From contig NZ_CP061379.1 in the NCBI RefSeq assembly GCF_015624505.1, positions 2,666,001-2,730,000 of the forward strand: 64,000 nt of DNA, written 5' to 3'. The stretch comes from Bradyrhizobium commune (GTDB lineage Bacteria; Pseudomonadota; Alphaproteobacteria; Rhizobiales; Xanthobacteraceae). The notes under the pieces are model-generated. The model did not search any database. It was not told the origin of the DNA and worked only from the letters and a program-made list of their open reading frames with translations. Of this stretch, positions 3,411 through 24,785 are shown piece by piece (the first letter of the stretch is position 1; every line of letters begins with the position of its first letter). The translations under genes and the position numbers were made by a program.

Positions 3411-3428
3411 TTGCGAGCGCTGTGCCAA
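3411..3428 (-). promoter_or_regulatory. Sigma-54-type promoter of flgI
   Basis: On the minus strand the site reads TTGGCAC-AGCGC-TCGCAA, a match to the sigma-54 consensus TGGCAC-N5-TTGC except for one T-to-C change. It lies 75 bases upstream of the flgI start and about 100 bases from the CGGCA-N5-TGCCG dyad, a spacing usual for an upstream activator site. An equivalent site with the same C substitution precedes flgF. Confidence 0.65.
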
Positions 3429-3523
3429 CCCGGGGCAGCGGGGTTAGGCGATTGAATAGGTTGAATAAATCTCTTTCGATCGACGCCAGAGCGCGTCCGC
3501 CTTGAGGAGCGAAACTGCCGCGT

Positions 3524-3542
3524 CCCGGCAGATTTTGCCGGG
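3524..3542. promoter_or_regulatory. Recurrent flagellar dyad, copy 1 (ftr/FlbD-like)
   Basis: This is a perfect inverted repeat, CCCGGCA-GATTT-TGCCGGG, in the flgI/fliX intergenic region. Its core recurs with the same 5-base spacer in the other divergent flagellar intergenic regions (15590, 24575, 24771). Composition and distance from the sigma-54-like site recall the ftr elements bound by FlbD in Caulobacter, but that comparison is from memory. Confidence 0.6.
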
Positions 3543-3545
3543 CCG

Positions 3546-3561
3546 TTTACGCGTCGTTAAC
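3546..3561 (+). promoter_or_regulatory. CtrA-box-like site upstream of fliX
   Basis: TTTA-N7-TTAAC differs from the CtrA consensus TTAA-N7-TTAAC by one base. It lies 45-60 bases before the fliX start, directly beside dyad copy 1. In Caulobacter, class II flagellar genes including fliX are activated by phosphorylated CtrA. Confidence 0.5.
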
Positions 3562-3606
3562 CATAAAGCGGTGAAGCTCCCGCGATCGATCACCCGGATT
3601 GCTTCG

Positions 3607-4020
3607 ATGCGCATCTACGGACCGAACGGCACCACGCTTGGAACGCCGGCCAGCCAGGCCAGGCGAACGAGCTCCGGCACCTTCGTGCTGCCCGACACCT
3701 CGTCGACGCAGGAGACGCGTGCGGCCGGTGCCCCGAAGGCCGCCGCCAACATCGACGGGCTGCTCGCGCTGCAAGGCATCGAGGAAGATCCGGTCGAACG
3801 GCGCAAGCGTTCGGTTGCCCGCGGCAAGTCCGCGCTCGACGTGCTCGACGATCTCAAGATGGGACTTCTGTCCGGCAATCTCGACGCCTCCACGGTGTTG
3901 CGGCTGCGGGATGCCGCGGCGAACCTGAAATCCTCCTCCGGCGATTCCGGCCTTGATGCCGTGCTCTCCGAGATCGAGCTGCGCGTCGAGGTCGAGCTGG
4001 CGAAGGCCGGCCAGGCGTAG
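3607..4020 (+). CDS. fliX: Flagellar assembly regulator FliX
   Basis: FliX couples completion of early flagellar structures to the sigma-54 activator FlbD in alphaproteobacteria. The 137-residue product begins MRIYGPNGT as FliX proteins do. It has a disordered Ser/Thr/Ala-rich stretch (residues 12-45) and the conserved C-terminal region with GKSALDVLDDLKMGLLSG and DAVLSEIELRVEVELAK. The open frame extends upstream, but ATG 3607 gives the family's usual N-terminus. It is divergent from flgI. Its presence supports reading the nearby dyads as FlbD sites. Confidence 0.9.
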   Translation: MRIYGPNGTTLGTPASQARRTSSGTFVLPDTSSTQETRAAGAPKAAANIDGLLALQGIEEDPVERRKRSVARGKSALDVLDDLKMGLLSGNLDASTVLRLRDAAANLKSSSGDSGLDAVLSEIELRVEVELAKAGQA

Positions 4021-4024
4021 CGCC

Positions 4025-4396
4025 TTACGCCGCTTCCTCCTTCTGCTGAGCATCGTAGCGGCGCTGGGCGGCGAGCACGTCCTTCAGATTCTCCTCGGCC
4101 CAATCGCGCAACGGATCGACCGCGGCGGCGAGTGTCAGGCCGAGCTGCGTGATCGAGTATTCGACCGTCACCGGCACAGTCGCGATGGCGCGGCGCTTGA
4201 TCAGGCCGTCGCGTTCAAGCGACTTGAGAACCTGGCTCAGCATCTTCTGCGAGATACCTTCAATCGTGCGGCGCAACTGATTGAAGCGCATCGGCTCCTC
4301 GCGCAGCAGCAACAGGATCAGCACCGCCCATTTGTCGCCGACACGATCGAGGATCTGGCGGGTCGGACAATCCGCCGAATAGACGTTGGGTTTCAT
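4025..4396 (-). CDS. HxlR-family transcriptional regulator
   Basis: The 123-residue product is a single winged helix-turn-helix of the HxlR/YodB type: an N-terminal Cys (residue 10, in SADCPTRQILDRVGDKWAV) followed by FNQLRRTIEGISQKMLSQVL and ERDGLIKR. In the family that Cys often senses quinones, aldehydes or oxidants. It is divergent from an NAD(P)-binding oxidoreductase gene, the usual target arrangement. Two TAGTTACT repeats, ten bases apart, lie between them. It probably represses that gene; the inducer is unknown. Confidence 0.88.
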   Translation of the reverse strand: MKPNVYSADCPTRQILDRVGDKWAVLILLLLREEPMRFNQLRRTIEGISQKMLSQVLKSLERDGLIKRRAIATVPVTVEYSITQLGLTLAAAVDPLRDWAEENLKDVLAAQRRYDAQQKEEAA

Positions 4397-4442
4397 CTCC
4401 GTCCCTCATGCTCCGTTCCGGTTACCCCTGTGTAATCAGGTA

Positions 4443-4455
4443 AGCACAAAGTGCT
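4443..4455. promoter_or_regulatory. Short inverted repeat, possible operator
   Basis: AGCAC-AAA-GTGCT is a perfect short dyad in the HxlR/oxidoreductase intergenic region. It is a candidate second regulator site; evidence is only symmetry and position. Confidence 0.3.
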
Positions 4456-4484
4456 CTCTTAACACCAGCATTCCTTGCGATATC

Positions 4485-4502
4485 TAGTTACTGATAGTTA
4501 CT
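4485..4502. promoter_or_regulatory. Direct repeat, candidate HxlR operator
   Basis: TAGTTACT occurs twice (4485-4492 and 4495-4502), with a 10-base period that puts both copies on one face of the helix. It lies 22-39 bases before the oxidoreductase start. HxlR-type dimers commonly bind such paired half-sites. Confidence 0.45.
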
Positions 4503-4523
4503 ATCGAAGCAAAGGAGCCTTCC

Positions 4524-5135
4524 ATGAAAATCGCAGTTGCCGGTGCCTCGGGCCGGGCCGGTTCGGAGATCGCCAAGGAACTGTCCCGTCGCGGCCACAG
4601 CGTCACCGCCATCGCGCGGAACCCGGAGAAGATCGCAAGCCTGCCCAATGTCGTGCCGACCAAGGGCGACGTGCTCGACCAGGCCGGCCTCGCCAAGCTG
4701 TGGGCCGGGCATGACGCCGCCGTCAGTTCCGTGCACTTCCTGGCCAGCGATGCACACAAGCTGCTTGCGGCGGCCAAGGCGTCCGGGGTGGGTCGCTATC
4801 TCGTGGTCGGCGGCGCCGGCAGCCTGGAGGTCGCTCCCGGTGTCAAACTGGTCACAACCCCCGGTTTTCCGGCCCAATACAAGGCCGAGGCCGAGGCGGG
4901 CTCCGCGTTTCTCGACCTGCTGCGGCAGGAAAAGGACCTGAACTGGACCTTCATCTCGCCGTCGGCGCTGTTCATCGAGGGGGAACGGACGGGCAAGTTC
5001 CGGCTCGGGACCGACCAGCTTCTCGCAGATGCGAACGGCAAGAGCTGGATCAGCTTCGCCGACTACGCCATTGCGCTGGCTGACGAGATCGAGCGGCCGG
5101 CCCATTTGCGGCAGCGTTTCACGGTCGGCTACTAG
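4524..5135 (+). CDS. NAD(P)-binding oxidoreductase, NmrA/YwnB-like
   Basis: The 203-residue cytoplasmic protein has a Rossmann fold with the dinucleotide motif GASGRAGSEIAKEL at residues 7-20. This is the atypical-SDR class with an NmrA-like NAD(P)-binding domain. No classical YxxxK catalytic pair is evident, so it may be a quinone or NADPH-responsive reductase. AAGGAG precedes the ATG. Its divergent HxlR neighbour suggests induction by a reactive electrophile or oxidant, which is inference. The substrate cannot be told from sequence. Confidence 0.85.
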   Translation: MKIAVAGASGRAGSEIAKELSRRGHSVTAIARNPEKIASLPNVVPTKGDVLDQAGLAKLWAGHDAAVSSVHFLASDAHKLLAAAKASGVGRYLVVGGAGSLEVAPGVKLVTTPGFPAQYKAEAEAGSAFLDLLRQEKDLNWTFISPSALFIEGERTGKFRLGTDQLLADANGKSWISFADYAIALADEIERPAHLRQRFTVGY

Positions 5136-5306
5136 GCTAAAGGCCGCCCCCGGGGGCCTCCCGGATAAACCTTCCTGTGCAAGGGCTTGGGGGCGGTAAC
5201 TGCGCCATTAAGGAAATATTGTCTGTCACAAGGGGTAGCTATATAAGCCCCGGCTCAACGGACCCCGTTCCGTTCGCGAGTCGTTGCTTAAGAAGATAGG
5301 CCGCCC

Positions 5307-5717
5307 TTGGAAAAGTTGAAAAACTACCGACCGACCGAAAAAGAGCCTTTCATGAACGACCGGCAGAAGGAGTACTTCCGTTTGAAGCTCCTCGCCTGGA
5401 AGGATGAGATCCTCAAAGAGTCCAAGCTCACCCTGCAGGCTTTGCAGGAGGAGAACGTGAACCACCCCGATCTCGCTGATCGGGCTTCGTCCGAAACCGA
5501 CCGTGCCATCGAACTCCGCGCCCGCGACCGCCAGCGCAAGTTGATCGCCAAGATCGACGCCGCGCTGCAGCGGATCGAGGACAACACCTACGGCTATTGC
5601 GAGGACACCGGCGAGCCGATCTCCTTGAAGCGGCTCGAGGCCCGGCCCATCGCGACGCTCTCGGTGGAGGCGCAGGAGCGCCACGAGAAACGCGAGAAGG
5701 TCTATCGCGACGAATAG
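5307..5717 (+). CDS. dksA: RNA polymerase-binding factor DksA, Cys-poor
   Basis: DksA enters the RNA polymerase secondary channel and, with ppGpp, adjusts rRNA and amino-acid promoters. The 136-residue product has the long coiled coil (about 25-95) and the tip residues D58 and A60, equivalent to D74 and A76 of E. coli. Only one of the four zinc-finger cysteines remains (C98); the others are T101, S119 and A122, a pattern I know from other alphaproteobacterial DksA proteins. The start is TTG at 5307, giving the usual EKLKNYRPTE N-terminus; an internal ATG at 5352 would cut into the domain. Confidence 0.93.
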   Translation: MEKLKNYRPTEKEPFMNDRQKEYFRLKLLAWKDEILKESKLTLQALQEENVNHPDLADRASSETDRAIELRARDRQRKLIAKIDAALQRIEDNTYGYCEDTGEPISLKRLEARPIATLSVEAQERHEKREKVYRDE

Positions 5718-5722
5718 AGTCC

Positions 5723-5751
5723 GAGCCGCCGATTGGCGGCTCTTTGTTTTT
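5723..5751 (+). terminator. Intrinsic terminator of dksA
   Basis: GAGCCGCC-GATT-GGCGGCTC forms a perfect 8-bp hairpin immediately followed by TTTGTTTTT, six bases after the dksA stop. Confidence 0.9.
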
Positions 5752-5997
5752 GAGCTCAAGGCGCAGCTTCGCGCCGCGATCGGCTTTTTGCCTGCGGCCA
5801 GCAGCCGCCTGCGTCGGCTCGCGCACGATCGCGAAAAACGAATCGCGATCAATGCGCTAGAGTCGATTCCTCCGAGCTCAGGTGAGTTCAGATGAGAAAC
5901 AGCCTTCACTTCAGGTGCGGGAGGTTTTGCGAGTCGCATCAACGGGATCGACTCGCATGCTGAGATTGAGATCAAGCAGCATCACGTTTCGCTGCAA

Positions 5998-6396
5998 TCA
6001 GGTCCCATGCGTCACAACCAGGTGCGCGTTTCCATAAAGCCGCGACCAGCTCAATATTTCCTTAAGCGCCGGCAGCTGGCCGTAGGCCGCGTCCGTCAGC
6101 TCGTACTCGACCCGCAACGGCTTCCCGGCGAAGGCGGTGCGCGTCACCAGGCCATCCTGCTCCAGCTCGCGCAGCTGTGTGGTCAGCATGTGCTGGGTGA
6201 TGCCGCCGACCGATCGCCGCAACGCGCCGAAACGAACAGCCCCGTTCATCAACACGACTAGGATCTCCAGCTTCCACTTGCCGCCGAGCGCGTGAATGGC
6301 GCGCTTGAAGTCGGCGAGGAGAGCCGGGTCGGGGGCGCAATCGCAGTCGCTCTCGCAGGCACTGGTCAGGTTTTCCATACCGGTCTCGAATTTCAT
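5998..6396 (-). CDS. HxlR-family regulator with N-terminal Cys cluster
   Basis: The 132-residue winged helix protein shows the HxlR core (ALGGKWKLEILVVLMNGAVR, then FGALRRSVGGITQHMLTTQL and ELEQDGLVTR). Unlike the first HxlR gene it has three cysteines in a short N-terminal run (SACESDCDC, residues 12-20), which could make it a thiol or metal sensor. ATG 6396 is preferred over upstream codons that read through the intergenic region. It is divergent from a reductase gene and probably controls it. Confidence 0.85.
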   Translation of the reverse strand: MKFETGMENLTSACESDCDCAPDPALLADFKRAIHALGGKWKLEILVVLMNGAVRFGALRRSVGGITQHMLTTQLRELEQDGLVTRTAFAGKPLRVEYELTDAAYGQLPALKEILSWSRLYGNAHLVVTHGT

Positions 6397-6491
6397 TCTA
6401 CTTGTGCCCCGGAAGATAGTGACCAGATGCGGCCTGAGCAGGGTTGTGGCGGAACCAATTTTCCGGCCTGTGCTTCGAGGGGAATTTGGCA

Positions 6492-7520
6492 ATGAGCACT
6501 GTTCTGGTCACCGGCGGCTCGGGCTTCGTCGGAATTCACGTCATTCTGCAGCTCCTGGCCGCCGGCCACACGGTGCGGACGACGGTGCGCCGGCCCGACC
6601 GGCGGGACGACGTGCTGGCGATGCTGCGTGAGGGCGGGGCGGCTTCGCCGGACAACCTGTCGCTCTTCACCGCCGATCTCACCGGGGACGCAGGCTGGCG
6701 CGAGGCGGTCGCGGGTTGCGACTACGTGCTCCATGTCGCTTCGCCGCTGTCGACCCGCGTGCCCGACGACGAGAACGAGATGATCATCCCGGCGCGCGAC
6801 GGTACGCTGCGGGTGCTGCGCGCCGCGCGCGATGCCGGCGTCAGGCGGGTCGTCATTACGTCCTCCCTGGGCGCGATCGGCTACGGCCACAAGCCGCGAC
6901 AAAAACCGTTCGACGAGACCGACTGGACCAATCTCGATGGCGCCGACGTGCAGCCCTACATCAAGTCCAAGACGCTGGCCGAGCGGGCAGCCTGGGATTT
7001 TGTCGCGCGCGAGGGCGGCGGCCTGGAGCTCTCGGTGGTCAACCCGGCGGGCATTTTCGGTCCCGTGCTGGGGCCGGATTTCTCGGGCTCGATCGAGATC
7101 GTCAAATCCCTGCTCGACGGCGCCATGCCGGCGGTGCCGCGGGTCTATTTCGGCGTGGTCGACGTCCGCGACGTCGCCGATCTGCATCTGCGGGCGATGA
7201 CCGCGCCGGAGGCCAAGGGCGAGCGTTTCATCGCGGTTTCCGGCGAGACGATGTCGATCCTCGACATCGGCCAGGTGCTGCGGCGGGAACTCGGTCCCAA
7301 GGCGCGCCGGGTTCCGCGGCTCCAGGCGCCGGACTGGCTGGTGCGGCTCGCCGCGAAACGGATTCCGCTGTTGCGTGCGGTCGTGCCGATGCTCGGCAGG
7401 GTGCGGCATTCGACCAGCGCCAAGGCGAGGACCATGCTCGGCTGGCAGGCCCGTTCCAATGACGACGCGATCCTCGCCACGGCCGAGAGCCTGATCCGGC
7501 TCAGCCTGGTCAAGGGCTGA
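6492..7520 (+). CDS. SDR-family NAD(P)-dependent reductase (dihydroflavonol reductase-like)
   Basis: The 342-residue protein is an extended/atypical SDR: the nucleotide motif GGSGFVGIHV is at residues 9-18. The active-site Ser is in VVITSSLGAIGYG, and YxxxK appears as YIKSK near residue 157. The family reduces ketones, aldehydes or flavonol-like substrates with NADPH. It pairs with the divergent HxlR gene and is followed by a hydratase gene 84 bases on. The true substrate is unknown. Confidence 0.87.
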   Translation: MSTVLVTGGSGFVGIHVILQLLAAGHTVRTTVRRPDRRDDVLAMLREGGAASPDNLSLFTADLTGDAGWREAVAGCDYVLHVASPLSTRVPDDENEMIIPARDGTLRVLRAARDAGVRRVVITSSLGAIGYGHKPRQKPFDETDWTNLDGADVQPYIKSKTLAERAAWDFVAREGGGLELSVVNPAGIFGPVLGPDFSGSIEIVKSLLDGAMPAVPRVYFGVVDVRDVADLHLRAMTAPEAKGERFIAVSGETMSILDIGQVLRRELGPKARRVPRLQAPDWLVRLAAKRIPLLRAVVPMLGRVRHSTSAKARTMLGWQARSNDDAILATAESLIRLSLVKG

Positions 7521-7604
7521 TGGCGCACGCCGCCCGTGCTTGTCAGGCCCGGGCGGGGATGCTCCACTGCCGCGCATGATTGCGTAGCGTGGGAGGCGGC
7601 GCCG

Positions 7605-8384
7605 ATGGACAACATTCTCGAGGCCGCAAAGGCGATCGCGCTTTCGCGCCGCAACCACGCGCCGCTCGCGGCGCTGGAACATCCCCCGGCCGACGAGGCC
7701 GAGGGCTATCAGGTCCAGCGCGCGCTGCATGACCTCCTGCTGCCGCATGTCGGGCCACTCGTCGGCTACAAGATCGGCTGCACCAGCCAGGTGATGCAGG
7801 ATTATATCGGCATCCCGCACCCCTGCGGCGGCGGCGTGTTCCAGAAGGGCGTGCACGACAGCGGCGTGAAGCTCGCGGCTGCCGACTATGTCCGGGTCGG
7901 CGTCGAATGCGAGATCGCGGTCCGGCTCAAGCGCGACCTCGCCGCCGGCGAAGCGCCGTTTACGGCCGAATGGGTCGGCGAGGCCGTCGAGGCCTATCAT
8001 CCCGCGATCGAGATCGTCGACGACCGCTATGTGAAGTGGGAGACGATGGGCGCGCCGACGTTGATCGCCGACGATTTCTTCGCCGCCGGCTGCGTGCTGG
8101 GGCCGTCCGTTCCGCGCTCGTCGGTGCCGGACCTGAAATCGGTCAAGGGCCGCGCCATCGTCAATGGCGAGGAAGTCAGCCACGGCACCGGCGCCGACGT
8201 GCTCGGCCATCCCCACAACGCACTCGCCTGGCTCGCCAACCACCTCGCCGCCGAAGGCAAGGGCCTGCACGCAGGACAGCTCGTGCTGACAGGCAGTCTC
8301 GTGAAGACGCTGTGGCTGAAGGCCGGCGACAAGGTGCGGATGGAGCTGGACGGGCTGGGGGTGGTCGAGGCGGAGTTTTCGTAA
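7605..8384 (+). CDS. 2-keto-4-pentenoate hydratase family protein (MhpD-like)
   Basis: The 259-residue cytoplasmic protein belongs to the fumarylacetoacetate hydrolase/2-oxopent-4-enoate hydratase fold. Visible marks are GYKIGCTSQVMQ, the metal-binding E-x-E in VGVECEIAV with AVEAYHPAIEIVDDR, and HPHNALAWLANHL near the C-terminus. Such enzymes hydrate 2-hydroxydienoates at the end of meta-cleavage of aromatics. GGGAGG lies eight bases before the chosen ATG. No other meta-cleavage gene is nearby, so pathway assignment is open. Confidence 0.88.
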   Translation: MDNILEAAKAIALSRRNHAPLAALEHPPADEAEGYQVQRALHDLLLPHVGPLVGYKIGCTSQVMQDYIGIPHPCGGGVFQKGVHDSGVKLAAADYVRVGVECEIAVRLKRDLAAGEAPFTAEWVGEAVEAYHPAIEIVDDRYVKWETMGAPTLIADDFFAAGCVLGPSVPRSSVPDLKSVKGRAIVNGEEVSHGTGADVLGHPHNALAWLANHLAAEGKGLHAGQLVLTGSLVKTLWLKAGDKVRMELDGLGVVEAEFS

Positions 8385-8410
8385 TCTGTCGTCTCCGCCA
8401 AAATCAGCGA

Positions 8411-8552
8411 TTTCGTGCCCCGGACGTAGCGCAGCGACTCTTCGGCGGTGCGCTGCAGAGCCGGGGCCCATGTGGCGGCGAGTTGTGTGGCTTCCTGGGT
8501 CCCGGCTCTGCGCCACAACGCTGACGCGTTGCTGCGCGTCCGGGACACGAAA
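8411..8552. repeat. Palindromic intergenic repeat
   Basis: The ends are inverted (TTTCGTGCCCCGGACG against CGTCCGGGACACGAAA), and the inside contains two inverted GAGCCGGG-type segments. It is a non-coding structured repeat of a kind I recognise from Bradyrhizobium intergenic regions. It follows the hydratase gene and could act in 3'-end formation. Confidence 0.6.
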
Positions 8553-8639
8553 GATATGAGGGGCGTCATCAGACAGAGGTCGGGGCAACGACTTCGTTCT
8601 TTCTATATCCCACTTGCAGACACACCTTCGCATTCTCGC

Positions 8640-9192
8640 GGCATCTTCCGCCCGAGTTTTGCAATCGTCTCGCCCTCTGCAAAAGCAGAAGGCGCAGGGA
8701 AGGCCGGGCGCCGGCTGGCACCCGAAGTCCCGTGTGCGGATCAAACGCGCACGGGTGGACCACAGGTGACGCCGGGACATCCCGGCCTTCCCTGCGCGGA
8801 TGGTTTTAACGGTGTCCTTCGTGCTCTCCCCGGGGAGCGATGCACTATTGCCCCCGTCGCCATGCAGATGGCTGATGCACGTGCCCGGTCGGGCCGCCGC
8901 ATCACGGCATGACTTGACGCACAGACCCCGGGCGTCAGGACCACACGACTTCTCCGTCCGCGCACATCTTCGCCGAACCCTCGATGGCTGGCGTGCGCTC
9001 ACCATCGAGATCTGCACAAAGACGCTGTCAGCGCCGTGTCGTATCGCGCGTGCTGCTGCTCACGGTTTCCCGCCCTGCAAGCCCACCTTGCGCGCCGACG
9101 CCGTCGCGGCCACCGCATTCCATTCCTCGTTTCGTGACGGTCGCGAGACGCCCTCTTGTGGAATAGAACGAAACGGGAACATAATGGCGTGA
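8640..9192. repeat. Repeat-derived region with spurious ORFs
   Basis: No credible gene is present. The segment reads like a dispersed Bradyrhizobiaceae element whose chance frames encode phrases such as GKAGRRLAPEVPCA and DLTHRPRASGPHDFSVRA, which I recall from many short dubious annotations. The frames overlap each other and lack sensible ribosome-binding sites. With the palindrome before it, this gives nearly 0.9 kb without a gene between the hydratase and the toxin gene. Confidence 0.55.
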
Positions 9193-9208
9193 TCAGGTTG
9201 TGTCAACA

Positions 9209-9234
9209 AGAATTTATATAAATCCGAAAATTCT
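9209..9234. promoter_or_regulatory. Inverted repeat upstream of the toxin-antitoxin pair
   Basis: AGAATTT and AAATTCT form a perfect 7-bp dyad with a 12-base spacer, 34-59 bases before the toxin start and within an AT-rich promoter-like stretch. It is a candidate autoregulatory operator for the antitoxin. Confidence 0.45.
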
Positions 9235-9267
9235 GAAATTGAAAAGTGGTAACGAGTGTGGTACCAA

Positions 9268-9597
9268 ATGATTGAGATCGAAGAATACATCGTCGACGAT
9301 CGAAGCCCATTCCGGGATTGGCTCGAACGACTTGGTCCGCAGGCGCGCGTGATGATTGCCGTCGCGATCGAGCGGCTGGCCGACGGCAACAAGTCGAACG
9401 TCAAGTCCATTGGGGAAGGGGCCGCCGAGCTGAAGATCAATCGTGGTCCAGGCTACCGCGTCTATTTCGGCTGGAGCGGCAATTTACTGGTCATTCTGTT
9501 GGGAGGCGGCACCAAACAGAGACAGCAAAACGATATCGACGCGGCGCTGCACCGCTGGCGTGAGTACAAGTCAAGAGCAGGACAGAGGACCAGGTGA
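9268..9597 (+). CDS. HigB/RelE-like toxin of a type II toxin-antitoxin pair
   Basis: The 109-residue basic protein fits the phage-derived Gp49/HigB-like group of RelE-fold toxins. It has FRDWLERLGPQARVMIAVAI near the N-terminus, LKINRGPGYRVYFGWSG in the middle, and the GGGTKQRQQNDIDAALHRW end that is characteristic of the group. These toxins cleave ribosome-bound mRNA. A GTG at 9256 is also in frame, but ATG 9268 gives the family's usual start. The stop overlaps the antitoxin ATG (TGATG). The toxin comes first, as in HI1419/HI1420-type pairs. Confidence 0.88.
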   Translation: MIEIEEYIVDDRSPFRDWLERLGPQARVMIAVAIERLADGNKSNVKSIGEGAAELKINRGPGYRVYFGWSGNLLVILLGGGTKQRQQNDIDAALHRWREYKSRAGQRTR

Positions 9598-9923: not shown

Positions 9924-10024
9924 TGAGTGTCGAAGATTGGCGAGAAAAGTGCTGGTACGATTCTTTCTTTGTCAATCCGGACGAAGTTGCGGTGAGTCGC
10001 CCTCACTTTTTCAGGATCGATTGA
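9923..10024 (+). CDS. Possible 33-residue coupled ORF
   Basis: An ATG overlaps the antitoxin stop (TGATG) and opens a 33-residue frame starting MSVEDWREKCWYDSFF. It resembles no family known to me. It may be a chance frame or the remnant of a longer gene; the only support is coupling geometry identical to the preceding toxin-antitoxin junction. Confidence 0.25.
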   Translation: MSVEDWREKCWYDSFFVNPDEVAVSRPHFFRID

Positions 10025-10037
10025 ATGAGCGAGACAT

Positions 10038-11048: not shown

Positions 11049-11090
11049 TGTCACGCACTCCTTATTCAAGGCACCGCGGAAATAGGTGGA

Positions 11091-14614: not shown

Positions 14615-15376
14615 TCAGGCCGGAACGTCGGCGAGCTTCTCGATCGCCGATTTGTGGAGGTCGCTCTGCTGCTGGAGCAGGTTGGCAATTGCCGTGTAGC
14701 TGCGCATCACCTCGACCATGCGGCTCATCTCGCCGACCGAATTCACGTTCGACTTCTCGATGTAGCCCTGCTGCACGGTCGACTTGGCGTCGGCCTGCTG
14801 GTTGGCCGAGCCGGCGCCGTAGAGATTGGCGCCGAGCTTGGCGAGCTTGGCCGGATCGTCGAACGTCACCATGCGGATCTTGCCGCGGATCGAGTCGATT
14901 TTGGCCGTGCCCTCGAGCACGGTGACGGTACCGTCGGGGGCGACGTTGATGTCGTGGTCGGTCGGCTGGAAGGTGATCGGGCCGGAATTGCCGAGCACGA
15001 GGTTGCCGTCGGAGGTGACGAGCTGGCCGGTGCTGCTGAGGGTGAATTTGCCGTCGCGGGTGTAGCGCTCGGCGCCATTGGCCTGCACCGCGAAGAACGC
15101 GTTGCCGGTGATCGCCATGTCGAGCGGGTTGTTGGTCGCCTCCAGCGGCCCCTGGCCGACGTCGCGATAGGTGCCGCGGTCCTGCACATAGGAGACCCGG
15201 CGGTCGGAGCCGACGAAATTGTCCTCATGCGCGTTCGAGTTGAGATACTCCTCGAACAGCGAATGGTCGGCCTTGAAGCCGTTGGTGTTGGCATTGGCGA
15301 CGTTGTTGGCGATGACATCCATCTGCCGCTCCAGCGTCATCTGCCGTGACAAGCCGATCAGAAGCGCGTTCTGCAT
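14615..15376 (-). CDS. flgF: Flagellar proximal rod protein FlgF
   Basis: FlgF is a proximal rod subunit. From ATG 15376 the product is 253 residues, beginning MQNALLIGLSRQMTLERQMD with the conserved DVIANNVANANTNGFKAD rod motif, and ending in the paired-helix region EKSNVNSVGEMSRMVEVMRSY. The frame is open for 48 more codons upstream, but these lack rod similarity and overlap the promoter region. It heads flgF-flgG-flgA-flgH, with a sigma-54-like site 113-129 bases upstream. Confidence 0.95.
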   Translation of the reverse strand: MQNALLIGLSRQMTLERQMDVIANNVANANTNGFKADHSLFEEYLNSNAHEDNFVGSDRRVSYVQDRGTYRDVGQGPLEATNNPLDMAITGNAFFAVQANGAERYTRDGKFTLSSTGQLVTSDGNLVLGNSGPITFQPTDHDINVAPDGTVTVLEGTAKIDSIRGKIRMVTFDDPAKLAKLGANLYGAGSANQQADAKSTVQQGYIEKSNVNSVGEMSRMVEVMRSYTAIANLLQQQSDLHKSAIEKLADVPA

Positions 15377-15488: not shown

Positions 15489-15505
15489 AGCGAAAGCCGT
15501 GCCAA
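15489..15505 (-). promoter_or_regulatory. Sigma-54-type promoter of flgF
   Basis: On the minus strand the site reads TTGGCAC-GGCTT-TCGCT. Both the TGGCAC element and the N5 spacing are exact, and the -12 element is TCGC, as at flgI. The dyad at 15590 is about 90 bases upstream. Confidence 0.65.
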
Positions 15506-15565
15506 CGCGGAAAAACACACGATTACAAAGGTTTGGCAATTTTTCAGGGGCGCAGCCGGGCGGCA

Positions 15566-15591
15566 GAAAGGTTCTGTTAGCCATGTTTGCC
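15566..15591. repeat. 26-bp repeat in the flgF/fliL region, copy 1
   Basis: The segment GAAAGGTTCTGTTAGCC and the nine bases after it recur 56 bases later (15622-15647) with only a few changes. Each copy contains a GTTARCC half-site resembling half of a CtrA box. Confidence 0.55.
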
Positions 15592-15608
15592 CGGCAGATT
15601 TTTCCTAG
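15590..15608. promoter_or_regulatory. Recurrent flagellar dyad, copy 2
   Basis: CCCGGCA-GATTT-TTCCTAG keeps the left arm and spacer of copy 1 exactly but has a degraded right arm. It lies between flgF and fliL, about 90 bases upstream of the flgF sigma-54-like site. Confidence 0.5.
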
Positions 15609-15621: not shown

Positions 15622-15647
15622 GAAAGGTTCCGTTAACCATTATTACC
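15622..15647. repeat. 26-bp repeat in the flgF/fliL region, copy 2
   Basis: GAAAGGTTCCGTTAACC and its continuation form the second copy of the 15566 repeat. Here the half-site is a perfect GTTAAC and reads TTAA-N7-TACC, a half-conserved CtrA box, about 115-130 bases before fliL. Confidence 0.5.
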
Positions 15648-15760: not shown

Positions 15761-16261
15761 ATGGCAGAGAATGAAGCGGAAGGCGGCGCGGCCGCCGAAG
15801 GCGCGGAGGCCGCTGCCCCGAAGAGCAAGTTCAAGCTGATCCTGATCGTTGTCGGCGTGCTGGTCGTGCTCGGAGGCGGTGCCGCGACCTGGTTCCTGTT
15901 CTTCCGTCACGGCGACGACGAGCATCACGCCGAGGCGGCGCCCCCGCCGAAGCCGCCCGTCTTCGTCGACGTGCCCGACATGATGGTCAACCTCGCCGGC
16001 GCTCCGGGCGAGCGCGTGCAATACCTCAAGATGAAGATCGTCCTGGAGCTGAAGGAAGAGAAGCAGATCGAGGCGATCAAGCCGGCGATGCCGCGCGTCA
16101 CCGACATCTTCCAGACCTATGTGCGCGAACTGCGCTCCTCCGACCTCAACGGCTCCGCCGGCATCTTCCGTCTCAAGGAGGAGCTGACCAAGCGCGTCAA
16201 CGCGGCGGTCGCGCCGATCCAGGTCAGCGCGGTGCTGTTCAAGGAAGTCGTGCTCCAGTGA
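15761..16261 (+). CDS. fliL: Flagellar basal body protein FliL
   Basis: FliL is a single-pass inner-membrane protein that surrounds the stator units and supports torque. The 166-residue product has an acidic Ala/Glu-rich cytoplasmic N-terminus, one membrane segment (about 24-48), a His/Glu/Pro linker, and the periplasmic FliL domain (VDVPDMMVNLAG to VSAVLFKEVVLQ). It opens fliL-fliM-DUF6468-motE, divergent from flgF. Confidence 0.95.
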   Translation: MAENEAEGGAAAEGAEAAAPKSKFKLILIVVGVLVVLGGGAATWFLFFRHGDDEHHAEAAPPPKPPVFVDVPDMMVNLAGAPGERVQYLKMKIVLELKEEKQIEAIKPAMPRVTDIFQTYVRELRSSDLNGSAGIFRLKEELTKRVNAAVAPIQVSAVLFKEVVLQ

Positions 16262-16291
16262 GGATGCCGCGGAAGGGTACGGGCTAGCGTC

Positions 16292-17940: not shown

Positions 17941-17949
17941 AGTCAGGGT

Positions 17950-18711: not shown

Positions 18712-18721
18712 GGGCGCATAC

Positions 18722-18736
18722 TTAAGAAGTCCTTAA
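18722..18736 (+). promoter_or_regulatory. CtrA-box-like site before the 1271-residue gene
   Basis: TTAA (18722-18725), seven bases, TTAA (18733-18736) is an exact match to the CtrA half-site pair. It is followed by T rather than C. It lies 78-92 bases upstream of the preferred start of the large repeat-protein gene. Confidence 0.6.
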
Positions 18737-18813
18737 TTGGCAAAACCTACATTCGAGGGCATCGGCCGGCGCCAGTGCCGGCGTTGACCGTTGCAACGGA
18801 AGAAATGCCGCCA

Positions 18814-21800
18814 ATGGCGCGAGAGGCTGCCGCTGGATTTGTGTCGCGAGCCCGCGCCCTGGCGCGGGGGCTGTCGCGTCACGTCCGCAAGGCACCGGCG
18901 CTGGCGGCCTGTCTCGTGATCGGCCTTACGATCGATCTTGGCGCGGCCCGTGCGGCCGATGCTATCAGGGGCGAGGCGAGCTTTTCGGCCGGTGGCGGCT
19001 TTGCCCGTCTCGTCATCAAGCTCGGCGAGGACGTTCCCTCCGAGGTGACGACCGCCGGCTCCATTCTCATCATTCGCTTCGACCGCCCCGTCGACGTTCC
19101 CGTCGACCGCGTGCCGGAAGGTGCGCCCGACTACGTCAACTCTGCCCGCCGGGATCCCGACGGCGGCGCCATCCGGCTGTCGCTGTCGCGGCGCGTCACC
19201 GTCAACACCATGAATGCCGGTGAGCGCACCTTCGTCGACCTGTTGCCGGAGGGCTGGAAGGGACCGCCACCGAGCCTGCCGATGGACGTGGTGAAGGAGC
19301 TCGCCGAGCGCGCGCGCGCCGCCGAACGGGCGCTGCGTGCCCAGCGTGCCGCGGCAGAGAGCAAGAAGCGTCCGCCGATCCGCGTGCGCGCCTCGGTGCA
19401 ACCGACCTTCGTGCGCTTCGTGTTCGAGATGCCCGACGGTGTCGGCGTCTCCTCCGTGCTCAACGAGCAGAAGCTCACGCTCGCCTTCAACGCCAACCTC
19501 AATTTCGATCTGGCCGATGCGGTCGTGGCGGCGCCGCCGAATGTCGCCTCGATCAAGCAGAAGGCCGATCTTGACCAGACCTCGGTCGAGATCTTGCTGA
19601 TCGGCGATTCCGACGTGCACTCCTTCCGCGACGACAAGAACTACGTCGTCGACGTCGCCTTCCAGCCCGACAAGGGCAAGGCGGCCGCGACGCCCGAAGC
19701 TGCGATTGCGCAAGCCAAGTCCGGCGGTCACGGACCGGCGCCGGCCGCGGAAAAGCCTATGGCCGAGAAGCCGAAGGAGGCGCATCGCGAGATCACGCCG
19801 CCGACCTCGGAGACGATCGCGCGCGAAGCCAAAATCGACGTTAAGCCTGACGTCAAGCCCGAGATGAAATCAGAGGGCAAGCCGGAAGCTCCCGCCGCGA
19901 TGGCGCCCGCCGAAGCGCCGAAGCCGGCTCCTATGGCGACCATGCCTGAAGTGCCGCCTGCTGCGGAGGCGCCCAAGCCCGCGCCACCGGCCATGGAAAC
20001 GGCAGCACCAGTCGCGCCGATGAAGCCGATGGCGCCCGCCGTTGCCGAGCTGCCCAAGGACGCCATGAAAGAGGCTGCCAAGGAGCCGGCGAAAGAAATG
20101 CCGATGGAGGCTGTCAAGGAAACGGCCAAGGAAACGGCCAAGGCTGCGCCAGCCGAAGCGCCGGCCCCCGTTGCGTCGCAGCCCACTGCCGCCAGCGTCG
20201 ATGCGCGCCGTGACAGCGACGGCCTGCGCGTCACGTTCCCGCTTCAGGTCGCTACGCCCGCCGCGGCGTTCCGCCGCGGCGACACGGTGTGGCTGGTGTT
20301 CGACTCGCAGAAGCCGATCGATGTCGAAGCAATCCGCGCCAGGGGTGGTGCGATGATCGGCGACGTCAGCCGCATGCCGCTCGAAAAGGGGCAGGCGGTG
20401 CGCATCCGTCTCACCCGACCGCTGGTCTATTCGCTGACCAGCGAGGAGGTCGGCAAGGAGACCAACTGGCTGTTGACGCTCGCCGACAAGATCCAGGCGA
20501 CGCCGCTGCCGCTGATGATGTCGCGCAACATCACCGATCCCGCGCTCGCCAACATCGCCATCCCCTTCGCCAATCCGGGCCTGCTGCACAAGCTCACCGA
20601 TCCCGACGCCGGCGACATGCTCTATGTCGTCACTGCGCAGCGGCCGGTCCGCGGCTTCATCAAGCGGCAGGACCTGGTCGACCTCTCGCTCTTGGAATCC
20701 GCGCATGGCATCGCGATCCGGCCGAATTCCGACGAGGTCGGTGTCGAGGTCGGATTGGACAAGGTCATTCTCGGCAAGAAGGGTGGCCTGACGCTGTCAC
20801 CGGTCGACGTCTCGGCCGAGCGGGCGCCGACCGCCGTGCGGCCGGTGTTCAATCCCGAAGGCTGGCGCAAGGGCCAGTCGGAGGACTTCTGGACCCGCCA
20901 GAGCGATCTGATCACGGCGATCTCGGCGGTCGATCCGGCGCAGCGCTCGCTGCCGCGGCTCGATCTCGCGCAGTTCTACATGTCGCGCGCCATGTATCAC
21001 GAGGCCAAGTCCGTCACCGACGTGATGCTGACCGACCCCCTCAACAAGGAGGAGAGCGGCGCGCTGATCATGCACGCGATCGCGAGCATCCTGATCGGGC
21101 GGCCGGCGCAGGGCCTGAAGGATCTCGCCAATCCCGTGATCGGCAACAGCCACGATTCCCAGCTCTGGAAGGCGCTCGCTTACGCGCGCCAGGGCAAATG
21201 GGCGGATGCCCGCGAGAAATTCAAGAACGTCGAATTCGCCATCGCCTCGCTGCCGCTCGACATCCAGCGCATCGTGACGATGGACGCGATGCGCGCCTCG
21301 CTCGAGGTGAAGGACTATGCCGGCGCCTCCAAGCGCCGCGGCGAGATCGAGGTGGTCGGCGTCTCGCCCGAGGCCGCGCCCGCATTTGCGGTTTTGCGCG
21401 GCCGGCTCGCCGAGGCGCTCGGCCACGACAAGGACGCGCTCGACGACTACAAATTCGCGGTCGCCTCGAGCGACCGGCCAGCGGCGGCGGAGGCCAAGCA
21501 GCTCGAGGTCGCGTTACGGCAGAAGCGCGACGAGATCAGCAAGGAAGATGCGTTGCGCGAGCTCGAGACGCTGTCGATGACCTGGCGCGGCGACGCGATC
21601 GAGGTCAAGACGCTCCAGATGCTGTCGCAGATGTATGCAGAGAACGGCCGCTACCGCGATGCGCTCACGGCTGCGCGCACCGCGACCAGGCTCCAGCCGA
21701 ATGCCGAAGCCTCGCGCCAGGCGCAGGATCTGGCGTCGGATCTGTTCACGCAGATCTTCCTGGGGCCCAAGGGCGACGAGCTGCCGCCGGTCGAGGCGCT

Positions 21801-22629
21801 CGGGATGTTCTATGAGTTCCGCGAGCTGACGCCGATCGGTCGCCGCGGCGACGAGCTGATCCGTCGTCTGGCCGATCGTCTCGCCTCGATCGATCTGCTC
21901 GACCAGGCCGCCGAGCTGCTGCAATACCAGGTCGACCACCGCCTCGAAGGCGCCGCGCGTGCGCAGGTCGCCGCGCGCCTAGCCATGATCTATCTCGCCA
22001 ACCGCAAGCCCGACTTTGCGATCACGGCGCTGCGCGCAAGCCGTATCAGCGATCTCTCTGGCGAGCTGCGGCAGCAGCGCCTGTTGCTGGAAGCGCGCGC
22101 GCAGAGCGACGTCGGCCGCCATGACCTCGCGCTCGACATCGTTTCCAATGTCAGCGGGCGCGAGGTGCTCCGCCTGCGCTCCGACATCTTCTGGGCGGCG
22201 CGGCGCTGGCGTGAATCTGCCGAGCAGATCGAGCTCTACTACGGCGAGCGGTTCCGCGATTTCAAGCCGCTCAACGCGGTGGAGAAGAGCGACATCATCC
22301 GCGCCGCCGTCGGCTACGCGCTCGCCGATGATTCAATCGGCCTGTCGCGCTTCCGCGAGAAATACGCGCCGCTGATGAGCGAGAGCGCCGATCGGCTCGC
22401 CTTCGACATCGCCAGCAAGCCGGCCGGCGCCTCCAGCGCCGAATTCGCGGAGATCGCAAAACTCGCCGCAAGCGTCGACACGCTCGACGGCTTCCTGCGC
22501 GAGATGAAGCAGCGCTTTCCCGACGCGACTGCGCGTGCGCCGGCCTCACCGCAGGCCAAGGACGAGACCGAGCACACCGGCTCGCTGCCCTCGATCCCGG
22601 TCGTGCGCCAGATCAAGATGACGCGGTGA
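18814..22629 (+). CDS. Large exported TPR-type protein of the flagellar locus
   Basis: The 1271-residue product has a long basic N-terminus with an export signal (APALAACLVIGLTIDLGAAR, about 28-47). An AMIN-like beta region follows (FSAGGGFARLVIKLGEDV, then IRFDRPVDVP). A low-complexity linker rich in Ala, Pro, Lys, Glu and Met spans about 295-460. A second beta region matching the first lies at about 465-560 (DSDGLRVTFPLQ, VWLVFDSQKPIDVE). The C-terminal half is helical tetratricopeptide-like repeats, including DALTAARTATRLQPNAEASR. GTG 18775 and ATG 18805 are alternative starts; 18814 has GGAAG at usable spacing. Function is unknown; its position and CtrA-like box tie it to motility or the cell cycle. 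Confidence 0.85.
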   Translation: MAREAAAGFVSRARALARGLSRHVRKAPALAACLVIGLTIDLGAARAADAIRGEASFSAGGGFARLVIKLGEDVPSEVTTAGSILIIRFDRPVDVPVDRVPEGAPDYVNSARRDPDGGAIRLSLSRRVTVNTMNAGERTFVDLLPEGWKGPPPSLPMDVVKELAERARAAERALRAQRAAAESKKRPPIRVRASVQPTFVRFVFEMPDGVGVSSVLNEQKLTLAFNANLNFDLADAVVAAPPNVASIKQKADLDQTSVEILLIGDSDVHSFRDDKNYVVDVAFQPDKGKAAATPEAAIAQAKSGGHGPAPAAEKPMAEKPKEAHREITPPTSETIAREAKIDVKPDVKPEMKSEGKPEAPAAMAPAEAPKPAPMATMPEVPPAAEAPKPAPPAMETAAPVAPMKPMAPAVAELPKDAMKEAAKEPAKEMPMEAVKETAKETAKAAPAEAPAPVASQPTAASVDARRDSDGLRVTFPLQVATPAAAFRRGDTVWLVFDSQKPIDVEAIRARGGAMIGDVSRMPLEKGQAVRIRLTRPLVYSLTSEEVGKETNWLLTLADKIQATPLPLMMSRNITDPALANIAIPFANPGLLHKLTDPDAGDMLYVVTAQRPVRGFIKRQDLVDLSLLESAHGIAIRPNSDEVGVEVGLDKVILGKKGGLTLSPVDVSAERAPTAVRPVFNPEGWRKGQSEDFWTRQSDLITAISAVDPAQRSLPRLDLAQFYMSRAMYHEAKSVTDVMLTDPLNKEESGALIMHAIASILIGRPAQGLKDLANPVIGNSHDSQLWKALAYARQGKWADAREKFKNVEFAIASLPLDIQRIVTMDAMRASLEVKDYAGASKRRGEIEVVGVSPEAAPAFAVLRGRLAEALGHDKDALDDYKFAVASSDRPAAAEAKQLEVALRQKRDEISKEDALRELETLSMTWRGDAIEVKTLQMLSQMYAENGRYRDALTAARTATRLQPNAEASRQAQDLASDLFTQIFLGPKGDELPPVEALGMFYEFRELTPIGRRGDELIRRLADRLASIDLLDQAAELLQYQVDHRLEGAARAQVAARLAMIYLANRKPDFAITALRASRISDLSGELRQQRLLLEARAQSDVGRHDLALDIVSNVSGREVLRLRSDIFWAARRWRESAEQIELYYGERFRDFKPLNAVEKSDIIRAAVGYALADDSIGLSRFREKYAPLMSESADRLAFDIASKPAGASSAEFAEIAKLAASVDTLDGFLREMKQRFPDATARAPASPQAKDETEHTGSLPSIPVVRQIKMTR

Positions 22630-22660
22630 GGGCCCGGATCGACGCGCCGCCACATCCACC

Positions 22661-22747
22661 GTCATAGCGAGCGCAGCAAAGCGATCCAGAATCTTTCCGC
22701 GGAGGGATTTGGGATTGCTACGTCGCAAGGGCTCCTCGCAATGACGG
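22661..22747. repeat. REP-like palindromic repeat, copy 1
   Basis: The segment opens GTCATAGCGAGCGCAGC and closes CTCCTCGCAATGAC, with a central ATCCAGAATCTTTCCGCGG. The same layout recurs at 41784-41869, and a minimal perfect version at 39304-39332. It lies between the convergent large TPR gene and fliP, a usual place for such elements. Confidence 0.8.
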
Positions 22748-22757
22748 GGAGAGAGCG

Positions 22758-23528
22758 TCATCCCCCGTAGCTCTGCACCAGGCTCCCCGCGACCAGCGAC
22801 CAGCCGTCGACCAGCACGAAGAAGATCAGCTTGAACGGCAGCGAGATCGTCGCGGGCGGCAGCATCATCATGCCCATCGACATCAGCACGGATGCGACCA
22901 CGAGGTCGATGATCAGGAACGGCAGGAACAACAGGAAGCCGATCTCGAAGGCGCGCTTGAGTTCGGAGATCATGAAGGCGGGGACGAGGATGCGCAGTGC
23001 GAGCTCGTCGGGGGTGGCCGGCGGCGGCTCGCCGGAGAGATCGAGGAACAGCTTCAGGTCTTTCTCGCGCACGTTCTTCTGCATGAAGCCGCGCAAGGGG
23101 ACGGAGGCGCGTTGGAGCGCGTCCTCGACGCTGATCTGATTGGCGACGAGCGGGCGGATGCCGTCGTCGTAGGATTTTTGCAGCACCGGCCCCATCACGA
23201 AGAAGGTGAGGAACATCGCGAGCGCCAGGATCACCGAGTTGGGCGGTGCGGTTGCCGTGCCCATCGCGGTGCGCAGCAGCGACAGCACGACCACGATGCG
23301 CGTGAAAGACGTCATCATGATCAGGATCGACGGCGCGATCGACAGCACGGTGAGCAGTGCGATCAGCTGGATCGCGCGCTCGGTGACGCCGCCGCCCCCC
23401 TGGCTGCCGAGATTGATGCTGATGTCCTGCGCATGCGCAGGGGTTGCAAGCAAAGCCGTGGCGAGCAAAGCCGCGGCGATCAGGACAGAAGGGACAAGAA
23501 CTCTACGCGGGAGGGTCGACAGCCTCAC
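22758..23528 (-). CDS. fliP: Flagellar type III export protein FliP
   Basis: FliP forms, with FliQ and FliR, the export-gate channel in the inner membrane. The 256-residue product has a cleavable signal peptide (about 10-33, ending AHAQD) and four membrane segments. The family motifs are LTVLSIAPSILIMMTSFTRI, FLTFFVMGPVLQKSYDDGI and FEIGFLLFLPFLIIDLVVASVL. The start is GTG at 23528, overlapping the fliO stop by four bases. Transcribed as fliO-fliP. Confidence 0.95.
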   Translation of the reverse strand: MRLSTLPRRVLVPSVLIAAALLATALLATPAHAQDISINLGSQGGGGVTERAIQLIALLTVLSIAPSILIMMTSFTRIVVVLSLLRTAMGTATAPPNSVILALAMFLTFFVMGPVLQKSYDDGIRPLVANQISVEDALQRASVPLRGFMQKNVREKDLKLFLDLSGEPPPATPDELALRILVPAFMISELKRAFEIGFLLFLPFLIIDLVVASVLMSMGMMMLPPATISLPFKLIFFVLVDGWSLVAGSLVQSYGG

Positions 23529-24481
23529 GAAGACGGCTTCGGACGGCCGAGCAGCGAGGCCATCTCGTCTTCGAGGTTTTCAAAGCTGGTCTTCTCCGCG
23601 ACAGGTCTCGCAGGCGGGGCCGACGGCTCGCCGCGCGTTACGCGCGGTGGCGGTGCAGGCGGCTCCGGTGCAACCGGAGGCGCGACCGTCTCGCCGGCCG
23701 GACGGCGCAGGGCAGCCTCGAGGCGCTGGGCCATCTCGGCGAGATTTTGTTCGGCGCTCGACGGTACGGCGGCGGCCGGGGGCGGCACGGGCGGAGCCTG
23801 CGGCACCGGCGGAGGCGGCGGTGCGGCTGCGCGCTCGGCCCGCACCGGCGGCACCTTCACCGGCTCGCTCTGGCGGGGCGGACGCGGCATCAGCGGCGGT
23901 TCGTTGCGGGCCACGCGCGGCGGCAGCGGCTCGGGGCGGGGCTCACGCTCGGGGCGCGGCGCAATCGGCTCGGGCGAAAAGCCGGCGAGAGGATCGCTGC
24001 GGCGCTCGGCCAAAGCGGGCGCCGGACGACGAACCTCGTCGGCGAAGGAGGGACGCGCGGGCCGCGGCGGCGGCTCCGGCATTTGTGGCTCGGGATGGTC
24101 GAGCACTTCGGGCCGCGGCGCTTCGTCGGCCCAGCCGCCGGCATCGGGCATCGGGGCAAGGCGCGGCGGCTCGGCGGCACTGGGGCGTTGCGGAATCTGG
24201 TCGCGGCCGGCTGCGGCGCGGACGATGTTCGGCTCGACGACGATGTCGGTGGGGCCGCCAATCATCAGCAGATGCTCGACATTGTCACGCCGGACCAGCA
24301 CCAGGCGCCGGCGGCCGTCGACTGCGGCCGCATCGATCACCGCGAGCCGGGGCATCCTGCCGCGCTGGGTGTTGGCGCCGAGCCGGGTGGTCGCGAATCG
24401 GCGGACCAGCCACGCCGCGACGCCGATCAACGCCAGAACGACGATGAACGCGACGATGAAAGTGATAGGGCTACCGTTCAT
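23525..24481 (-). CDS. fliO: FliO-like protein with long proline-rich tail
   Basis: FliO helps assemble the FliP ring. The 318-residue product has one membrane helix (about 7-27), the short FliO domain (MPRLAVIDAAAVDGRRRLVL, then VRRDNVEHLLMIGGPTDIVV, about 43-85), and then over 200 residues of Pro/Arg/Glu/Ala-rich disordered sequence. Enteric FliO is about 120 residues, so the tail is the unusual part. GGGGA lies six bases before ATG 24481. It overlaps fliP by four bases. Confidence 0.88.
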   Translation of the reverse strand: MNGSPITFIVAFIVVLALIGVAAWLVRRFATTRLGANTQRGRMPRLAVIDAAAVDGRRRLVLVRRDNVEHLLMIGGPTDIVVEPNIVRAAAGRDQIPQRPSAAEPPRLAPMPDAGGWADEAPRPEVLDHPEPQMPEPPPRPARPSFADEVRRPAPALAERRSDPLAGFSPEPIAPRPEREPRPEPLPPRVARNEPPLMPRPPRQSEPVKVPPVRAERAAAPPPPPVPQAPPVPPPAAAVPSSAEQNLAEMAQRLEAALRRPAGETVAPPVAPEPPAPPPRVTRGEPSAPPARPVAEKTSFENLEDEMASLLGRPKPSS

Positions 24482-24574
24482 ACCTGTCCCCGGCAAATGG
24501 CGCTTCTCTCGTGCCTATAGTCCACCGACCAGCGGCGTGCGATGCCCCAAAAACTGCGATCTCTTAACGTCCCG

Positions 24575-24589
24575 CGGCAAGTTTTGCCG
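24575..24589. promoter_or_regulatory. Recurrent flagellar dyad, copy 3
   Basis: CGGCA-AGTTT-TGCCG is a perfect dyad with the same 5-base spacer as the copies at 3524 and 24771. It is about 95 bases upstream of the fliO start, in the 349-base fliO/flgB intergenic region. Confidence 0.55.
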
Positions 24590-24746
24590 TCCCCAACCCT
24601 TAATAACCTATGAATCGCCCGATCCAAAACGACTTCTTGGCCTGTGCACGGACCGCCAAGCGGTTGGGTTAATGCGGTTTTTGCAACGGGTAGAAACACG
24701 GGGGACGCAATGCATGTCTCAATCAGAAACATGCATCTGCCGCGCC

Positions 24747-24762
24747 TTAACCACCTGTTAAC
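24747..24762 (+). promoter_or_regulatory. CtrA box upstream of flgB
   Basis: TTAA-CCACCTG-TTAAC is an exact match to the CtrA consensus TTAA-N7-TTAAC, 69-84 bases before the flgB start. Early basal-body operons are CtrA targets in Caulobacter. The kinase CckA is encoded at the end of this same run of genes. Confidence 0.7.
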
Positions 24763-24770
24763 CATACACG

Positions 24771-24785
24771 CGGCAAATTCTGCCT
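24771..24785. promoter_or_regulatory. Recurrent flagellar dyad, copy 4
   Basis: CGGCA-AATTC-TGCCT has one mismatch in the right arm. It lies nine bases downstream of the flgB CtrA box and 46 bases from the start codon, a position suited to repression as much as activation. Confidence 0.55.

Follow-up and report, generated by a model that had tools for sequence, protein, structure and literature searches.

A repeated dyad between divergent flagellar operons of Bradyrhizobium as a candidate FlbD-binding element

A dyad with the arms CGGCA and TGCC around an A+T-rich 5-base spacer recurs between divergent flagellar operons of Bradyrhizobium commune and, judged from its sequence context, is very probably the binding element of FlbD, an NtrC-type sigma-54 activator, i.e., the Bradyrhizobium form of the Caulobacter ftr element. 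The window analyzed here is a stretch of 64,000 nucleotides (positions 2,666,001-2,730,000 of the single 7.62-Mb chromosome), in which four such dyads begin at positions 3524, 15590, 24573, and 24769. An earlier sequence-only reading of this window had named FlbD as the likely reader of the dyad and sigma-54 promoters as its partners. This assignment gains support from conservation of the dyad within the genus, its lack at six of six genes of the second flagellar system, an excess of the dyad only in genomes with FliX, a related dyad at Caulobacter-type fliF promoters, and a DNA-reading helix of FlbD that is identical in a Caulobacter species.

Conservation of the dyad within the genus

Dyad 1 (3524..3542; CCCGGCA-GATTT-TGCCGGG, perfect 7-bp arms) lies between flgI and fliX, and dyad 2 (15590..15608; CCCGGCA-GATTT-TTCCTAG, left arm intact) lies between flgF and fliL. 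The region between fliO and flgB holds two copies: dyad 3 on the fliO side (24573..24591, CGCGGCA-N5-TGCCGTC; core 24575-24589, CGGCA-AGTTT-TGCCG, perfect 5-bp arms) and dyad 4 on the flgB side (24769..24787, CGCGGCA-N5-TGCCTAG; core 24771-24785, CGGCA-AATTC-TGCCT, one mismatch). Dyads and their second half-sites are given without a strand. With the coordinates rechecked, the four copies stand as first described in position, arms, and 5-base spacer, and all of them lie between divergent flagellar operons. The remark that none occurs elsewhere was too strong: CGGCA-N5-TGCC is also found exactly at 31004 and 37031 in the window, with spacers that are more G+C-rich than those of the four dyads.

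Our same-genus set comprises 19 genomes, that of B. commune included, and the counts that follow refer to these 19. The fliX dyad is present as exact CGGCA-N5-TGCCG in 19/19 genomes and lies at -76 to -84 relative to the start of fliX; the fliL dyad (CGGCA-N5-TTCCTA) and the flgB dyad (GGCAAATTCTGCCTA) are likewise found in all 19, the fliO dyad is found with at most one mismatch in 15, and a dyad precedes fliF in 18. The alignments cover 8 or 9 of the 19 genomes, with 9 to 11 relatives left out; in the aligned genomes, dyad arms, TTAACC boxes, and -24/-12 elements are invariant amid otherwise diverged DNA.

Some dyads are accompanied by a second half-site. Near dyad 1, a block (GCGAAACTGCC, 3509..3519) that is invariant in the 8 aligned genomes (8/19) gives a TGCC-to-TGCC spacing of 20 bp, and near dyad 2, a half-site (CGGCAGAAAGG, 15561..15571) lies 31 bp away, its GGCA and AAGGT being invariant in the 9 aligned genomes (9/19). 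The second half-sites are thus about two or three helical turns off (20 bp at flgI, 31 bp at flgF, and 21 bp at rpoE6, outside the window), a spacing as would be expected for paired activator dimers.

A matrix built from seven sites outside the window places the four window dyads at the top of the 64 kb, with scores of 19.9, 19.5, 16.5, and 16.3, the next score being 12.7. Because the seven training sites were found via patterns derived from the window, this ranking is a consistency check and was rejected as independent proof; it shows only that the window sites and the outside sites are of one make. Conservation and the comparison of genomes with and without FliX provide support that does not depend on it. 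At 31002-31020, 3' of a hybrid kinase gene, an intergenic dyad with a G+C-rich spacer (GGCGGCAACCTCTGCCGTC) has a low matrix score.

Bradyrhizobium has a second flagellar system, probably the lateral one. In none of the six paralogues fetched from it (L077, L078, and L105 to L108) does the 600-bp upstream region contain a dyad with fewer than three mismatches; five further FlgB-paralogue entries lacking loci were left out of this count. In the second cluster of B. commune itself, the two stretches scanned (L270 and L271) hold no matrix score of 11 or more, save one match that is taken up below. Our findings indicate that the element goes with the FliX-linked flagellar system.

Co-occurrence with FliX and the FlbD protein

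In an order-wide sample of 150 genomes, 88 with and 62 without FliX, the strict dyad CCGGCARWWWYTGCC was compared with its reversed control. The counts are 181 against 29 in the FliX-containing genomes, a ratio that gives no exact probability because the genomes are related and symmetric sites are counted twice, and 40 against 41 in the genomes lacking FliX. At least one strict dyad is present in 70/88 and 26/62 genomes, respectively. Among the distinct sites listed, 21 of the first 40 from FliX-containing genomes have a flagellar gene no more than 2.5 kb away, compared with none of the first 20 from the other genomes. In FliX-containing genomes of other families, a dyad upstream of fliX has at most one mismatch in 4/6 cases and two mismatches in 2/6.

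The FlbD gene, located outside the window (L019, 12943-14328), encodes sigma-54 activator and Fis-type helix-turn-helix domains, with the GAFTGA motif present. It stands at the end of the fliF operon, 3' of fliG and fliN (families assigned by Pfam); the open reading frame between them that we take for fliH and the SciP-like gene beside fliF were both named by eye. FlbD is 67% identical to Caulobacter segnis FlbD, and the stretch of the DNA-reading helix, NRTHAANILGISIRTLRNKL, is letter-identical in the two proteins. It does not occur in the three other sigma-54 activators that were compared, out of nine further family matches in the genome.

For Caulobacter-type fliF (Caulobacter and relatives), 80 loci were fetched, of which 70 were usable; the other 10 lacked a usable fliF start preceded by 350 bp and were dropped. 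A matrix score of at least 12 is found at 69 of the 70 promoters (mean of 0.5 and maximum of 2 in 30 shuffles). The dyads, e.g., CTGGGTAAATCCTGCCTAG and CCCGGTAATTCCTGCCTAG, lie mostly 40 to 115 bp before fliF.

Promoter context, proposed mechanism, and alternatives

For sigma-54-like promoters, scoring weights were set from the consensus, with a maximum of 16.7; scores of at least 14 occur 14 times per 40 kb of background, both strands counted. Both sites of the sequence-only reading are confirmed with a score of 15.5 each: that of flgI (3412..3428, minus strand; TTGGCACAGCGCTCGCA), whose -24 GG is about 107 bp from the center of dyad 1, and that of flgF (15489..15505, minus strand; TTGGCACGGCTTTCGCT), whose -24 GG is about 96 bp from the center of dyad 2. 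At both sites the -24 GG and the -12 GC are separated by 10 bases, and TGGCAC-N5-TCGC is kept in 19/19 same-genus genomes at each. The shared C in the -12 element, also pointed out earlier, therefore holds throughout the genus set, but it is not general. The -12 consensus of sigma-54 is TTGC, from which flgI and flgF deviate with TCGC and to which flgE and fliK conform. A published form of the full consensus is GGCNC-N4-CTTGC (PMC4287350). The flgE and fliK dyads were found outside the window, and good sigma-54-like sites accompany them at the same distance (L268, 17445-17461, and L023, 1295-1311). At all four late operons, flgI, flgF, flgE, and fliK, the site scores 14.7 to 15.7 and the dyad center lies 85 to 107 bp upstream of the -24 element. 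No convincing sigma-54-like site was found at fliF, fliO-flgB, rpoE6, flgD2, or ccrM (best scores, 13.2 at fliO-flgB and 11.2 at fliF).

The dyads of the early operons flgB, fliL, and fliF adjoin TTAACC-type boxes resembling CtrA sites. A full CtrA-like box, TTAACCACCTGTTAACC (TTAA-N7-TTAA; 24747..24763, plus strand), lies 5' of flgB; the CGGCA arm of dyad 4 begins 7 bp past it, and two TTAACC within 120 bp of flgB are found in 19/19 same-genus genomes. Apart from flgB and fliF, the early genes have half-sites, all on the plus strand: TTAACC 5' of fliX (3557..3562; 19/19), TTAGCC 9 bp before the CGGCA arm of dyad 2 (15577..15582; TTAGCC or TTGACC in the 9 aligned genomes), and TTAACC between dyad 2 and fliL (15633..15638; 19/19). 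At fliF, the dyad is downstream of a double TTAACC with 6 bases between the halves rather than 7. Since the dyad adjoins these boxes, a repressing role would be no less likely than an activating one, and since the operons are divergent, one dyad may serve both sides at once.

What the dyads, their conservation, their neighbors, the co-occurrence with FliX, and the recognition helix show is the anatomy of the system; as the simplest mechanism we propose a takeover from CtrA by FlbD that would combine early repression with late activation. CtrA would switch on the early operons fliF, fliX, fliL, flgB, and fliO. After assembly of the base ring and export gate, FliX would release FlbD, which could then occupy the dyads. 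At the late operons flgI, flgF, flgE, and fliK, FlbD dimers bound 85 to 107 bp upstream of the -24 element would activate the sigma-54 polymerase, whereas at the early operons, where the dyad is next to or overlaps the presumed CtrA-driven promoter, FlbD would repress. The single dyad between flgF and fliL, and perhaps that between flgI and fliX, may activate and repress at the same time. The inferred early and late roles follow FlbD action in Caulobacter, as described in the accessible parts of PMC3930126, PMC3096577, and PMC7064773.

Three alternatives may be considered. That a G+C-rich palindrome occurs four times by chance is hardly credible. The bare pattern is indeed common: CGGCA-N5-TGCC with at most one mismatch occurs 61 times in the window (both strands) against 37.9 expected from shuffles, such a match is present in 9.9% of 1,999 background segments 600 bp long (an exact one in 0.6%), and there is no genome-wide enrichment. 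However, the chance explanation is already contradicted by the 19/19 conservation at three of the four sites in diverged DNA and by the dependence on FliX. It is also quite improbable that the dyad is read by another flagellar or cell cycle regulator, such as a SciP-, MucR-, or CtrA-related protein. The CtrA-like TTAACC boxes near the early copies and the SciP-like gene adjoining fliF would fit such a reader, but that gene turns up in 29 of 31 genomes, including four in which FliX had no match, while the excess of dyads tracks with FliX; the enhancer-like distance to the sigma-54-like sites and the identical FlbD helix also argue against it. As FlbD and FliX go together, the FliX comparison itself does not separate FlbD from another FliX-linked protein. 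Finally, FlbD might act as an activator only. Copies at early genes would then serve the divergently oriented late promoter or a sigma-54 promoter that escaped notice, without any repression. We regard this as unlikely: in its favor, each of the two window regions with a good sigma-54-like site has a late operon as one of its divergent partners, but flgB, fliO, and fliF have a dyad and no good sigma-54-like site, at flgB a full CtrA-like box lies 7 bp from the dyad, and in Caulobacter, according to the accessible part of PMC3930126, fliF is repressed via ftr4.

Several observations weigh against FlbD as the reader of a flagellar operator. (i) Across the genome, GGCARDWHYTGCC occurs at 22 places, against 21 for the reversed control, and a second word count gave 8 against 6; with the word at control level across the whole genome, bare pattern counts were rejected as proof. 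The sequence-only reading had put forward an even spread over unrelated intergenic regions as counterevidence. Of the 22 places, 15 are nonflagellar, and 11 of the 15 fall within called coding frames. By placement, the word does go beyond chance, as the other 7 precede the flagellar operons or genes fliF, fliK, rpoE6, flgD2, fliX, fliO, and flgB; a Poisson estimate was set aside because it depended on a guessed 4.5 kb of flagellar upstream DNA and on targets picked after the fact. Of the four nonflagellar places outside called frames, one precedes ccrM, one is ambiguous (L008), and two are intergenic; the frames are our own open reading frame calls, and the ccrM place, which falls in a weak frame of 97 amino acids, was taken as intergenic. 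(ii) The fliO dyad is degenerate or lost in 4/19 same-genus genomes, 19 of the 40 sampled sites in FliX-containing genomes have no flagellar gene found nearby, and the match in the second flagellar cluster, a dyad-like sequence inside coding frames (L271), scores 16.1. (iii) The longest fliK frame begins within its sigma-54-like site, so the real fliK start must be further in. (iv) Exact GGCA-N5-TGCC is found at only 2/70 Caulobacter-type fliF promoters, near chance (shuffled mean of 1.0, maximum of 4), and an exact core shared with the Caulobacter relatives was rejected for this reason; the comparison therefore needs the matrix. Most left arms at these promoters read GGTA, and the match accordingly depends on a matrix trained on Bradyrhizobium sites, the Bradyrhizobium fliF site among them. 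(v) Four similar flagellin-type genes of 762-763 amino acids stand in a row just left of the window (L269:9682-19745), and no dyad and no matrix score of 11 or more was found at these four long genes.

Neighboring genes, possible further targets, and known systems

The genes flanking the dyads form divergent operons. On the minus strand are flgI (P-ring; late operon; 2212..3387, frame from the longest start), flgF (14615..15376, start chosen by inference), followed by flgG, flgA, and flgH, and fliO (23525..24496; weak FliO match, E value of 5e-6), followed by fliP. On the plus strand are fliX, encoding the FlbD partner (3607..4020; Pfam PF10768 and NCBIfam equivalog), fliL (15761..16261), followed by fliM, and flgB (24831..25235; no Pfam match, placed by homology), followed by flgC-fliE-fliQ-fliR-flhB. 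The flagellar cluster also encodes a protein of 1,284 amino acids with a TPR match (18775-22629), its gene lying between the fliL-fliM operon and fliP. Directly 3' of flhB, the gene at 28421-31000 encodes a hybrid histidine kinase whose PAS, HisKA, HATPase, and receiver domains stand in an order reminiscent of CckA, the kinase above CtrA.

Outside the window, L020 (12346-12598 and 12713-13411) holds dyads and an extracytoplasmic function (ECF)-type sigma gene that precedes a flagellin gene; the product of the sigma gene has Pfam sigma-70 regions 2 and 4 and is RpoE6-like. The alignment of 10 genomes (L175, at a contig end, was left out) shows three dyads upstream of the sigma gene, two of them spaced by 21 bp and one farther upstream. 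The order of dyad, sigma gene, and flagellin is also seen in another family (L111). In the same cluster, flgD2 has an exact dyad in 11/11 same-genus loci. A conserved block, AATC...CGTTT.ATC, follows the flgD2 dyad (L199 to L209) without a sigma-54-like site and may be an ECF-type promoter.

The remaining candidate target is a gene for a DNA methylase with a RAMA domain (L289), presumably CcrM. Three dyad-like sites stand in a row 250-310 bp before it (L289:1499-1572; about 5,681,376-5,681,449), with scores of 25.6, 18.5, and 16.2; the first tops every flagellar site scored alongside. Counterparts in two relatives score 24.8/18.5/12.4 and 24.5/18.5/14.7, and across the three genomes the arms of the strongest site are invariant while two spacer bases drift. 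A scan of 1.2 Mb from three relatives, retrieved to cover ccrM if possible, ranks two ccrM sites above all other positions, and the third best (21.1) is unrelated; no ccrM turned up in the 400 kb retrieved from the third relative (G015). It is possible, at somewhat below an even chance, that FlbD also acts at ccrM and links a flagellar checkpoint to the gene of a cell cycle DNA methylase. In that case, finishing the flagellar base would act back on chromosome methylation and, through it, on the cell cycle clock. The divergent gene, encoding a zinc-peptidase (PF04228), could be the target of these sites instead. In Caulobacter, ccrM is among the 24 genes, mostly sigma-54 flagellar ones, that are most enhanced by mutations in the NtrC DNA-binding domain in a cckA mutant (PMC12421884, accessible part). 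No account of FlbD acting at ccrM was found in titles and abstract openings, a coverage largely outside the subscription literature.

For Bradyrhizobium, which has two flagellar systems, the dyad offers a concrete candidate operator of FlbD, and the regulon can be predicted from it. Beyond the window, the regulon would include fliF, fliK, the hook operon, the RpoE6-like sigma factor with the minor flagellin, and ccrM; should the ccrM sites be functional, a single protein would wire flagellum assembly to the cell cycle methylation clock.

The kind of system is already known. In Caulobacter crescentus, the ftr elements are bound by FlbD, which represses fliF at ftr4 and activates sigma-54 genes at the others (PMC3930126 and PMC3096577, accessible parts). 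The Bradyrhizobium system shares with it a dyad of the same make beside CtrA-type and sigma-54 flagellar promoters, the presence of FlbD and FliX, and the identical recognition stretch. It differs in its arms, CGGCA/TGCC versus mostly GGTA/TGCC at Caulobacter-type fliF, and in having dyads also at rpoE6, flgD2, and ccrM-type genes. The same protein pair is the subject of Dardis et al. (2021), who, by the title cited in PMC9977809 and PMC13390405, describe FlbD-FliX of Bradyrhizobium diazoefficiens as class II regulators that control flagellar synthesis and exopolysaccharide. The divergent flgB and fliO promoters of Caulobacter share a CtrA site (Boyd and Gober 2001, cited in the accessible part of PMC6180460); the same gene pair and a CtrA-like box recur here, with a dyad in addition on each side. 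In Azospirillum brasilense, the RpoE6-FliC2 cluster comprises an ECF sigma gene, a minor flagellin gene, fliD, fliS, flgD, flgE, flgK, and flgL, and its synteny in Bradyrhizobium japonicum has been noted (PMC12826043, accessible part). The gene order at L020 corresponds to it, whereas tandem dyads precede the sigma gene here; as a term, FlbD is absent from the main text of that paper. To the Caulobacter ftr elements and the FlbD-FliX pair of B. diazoefficiens, our analysis adds a candidate Bradyrhizobium operator, the link to FliX across an order, and the sites at ccrM and rpoE6.

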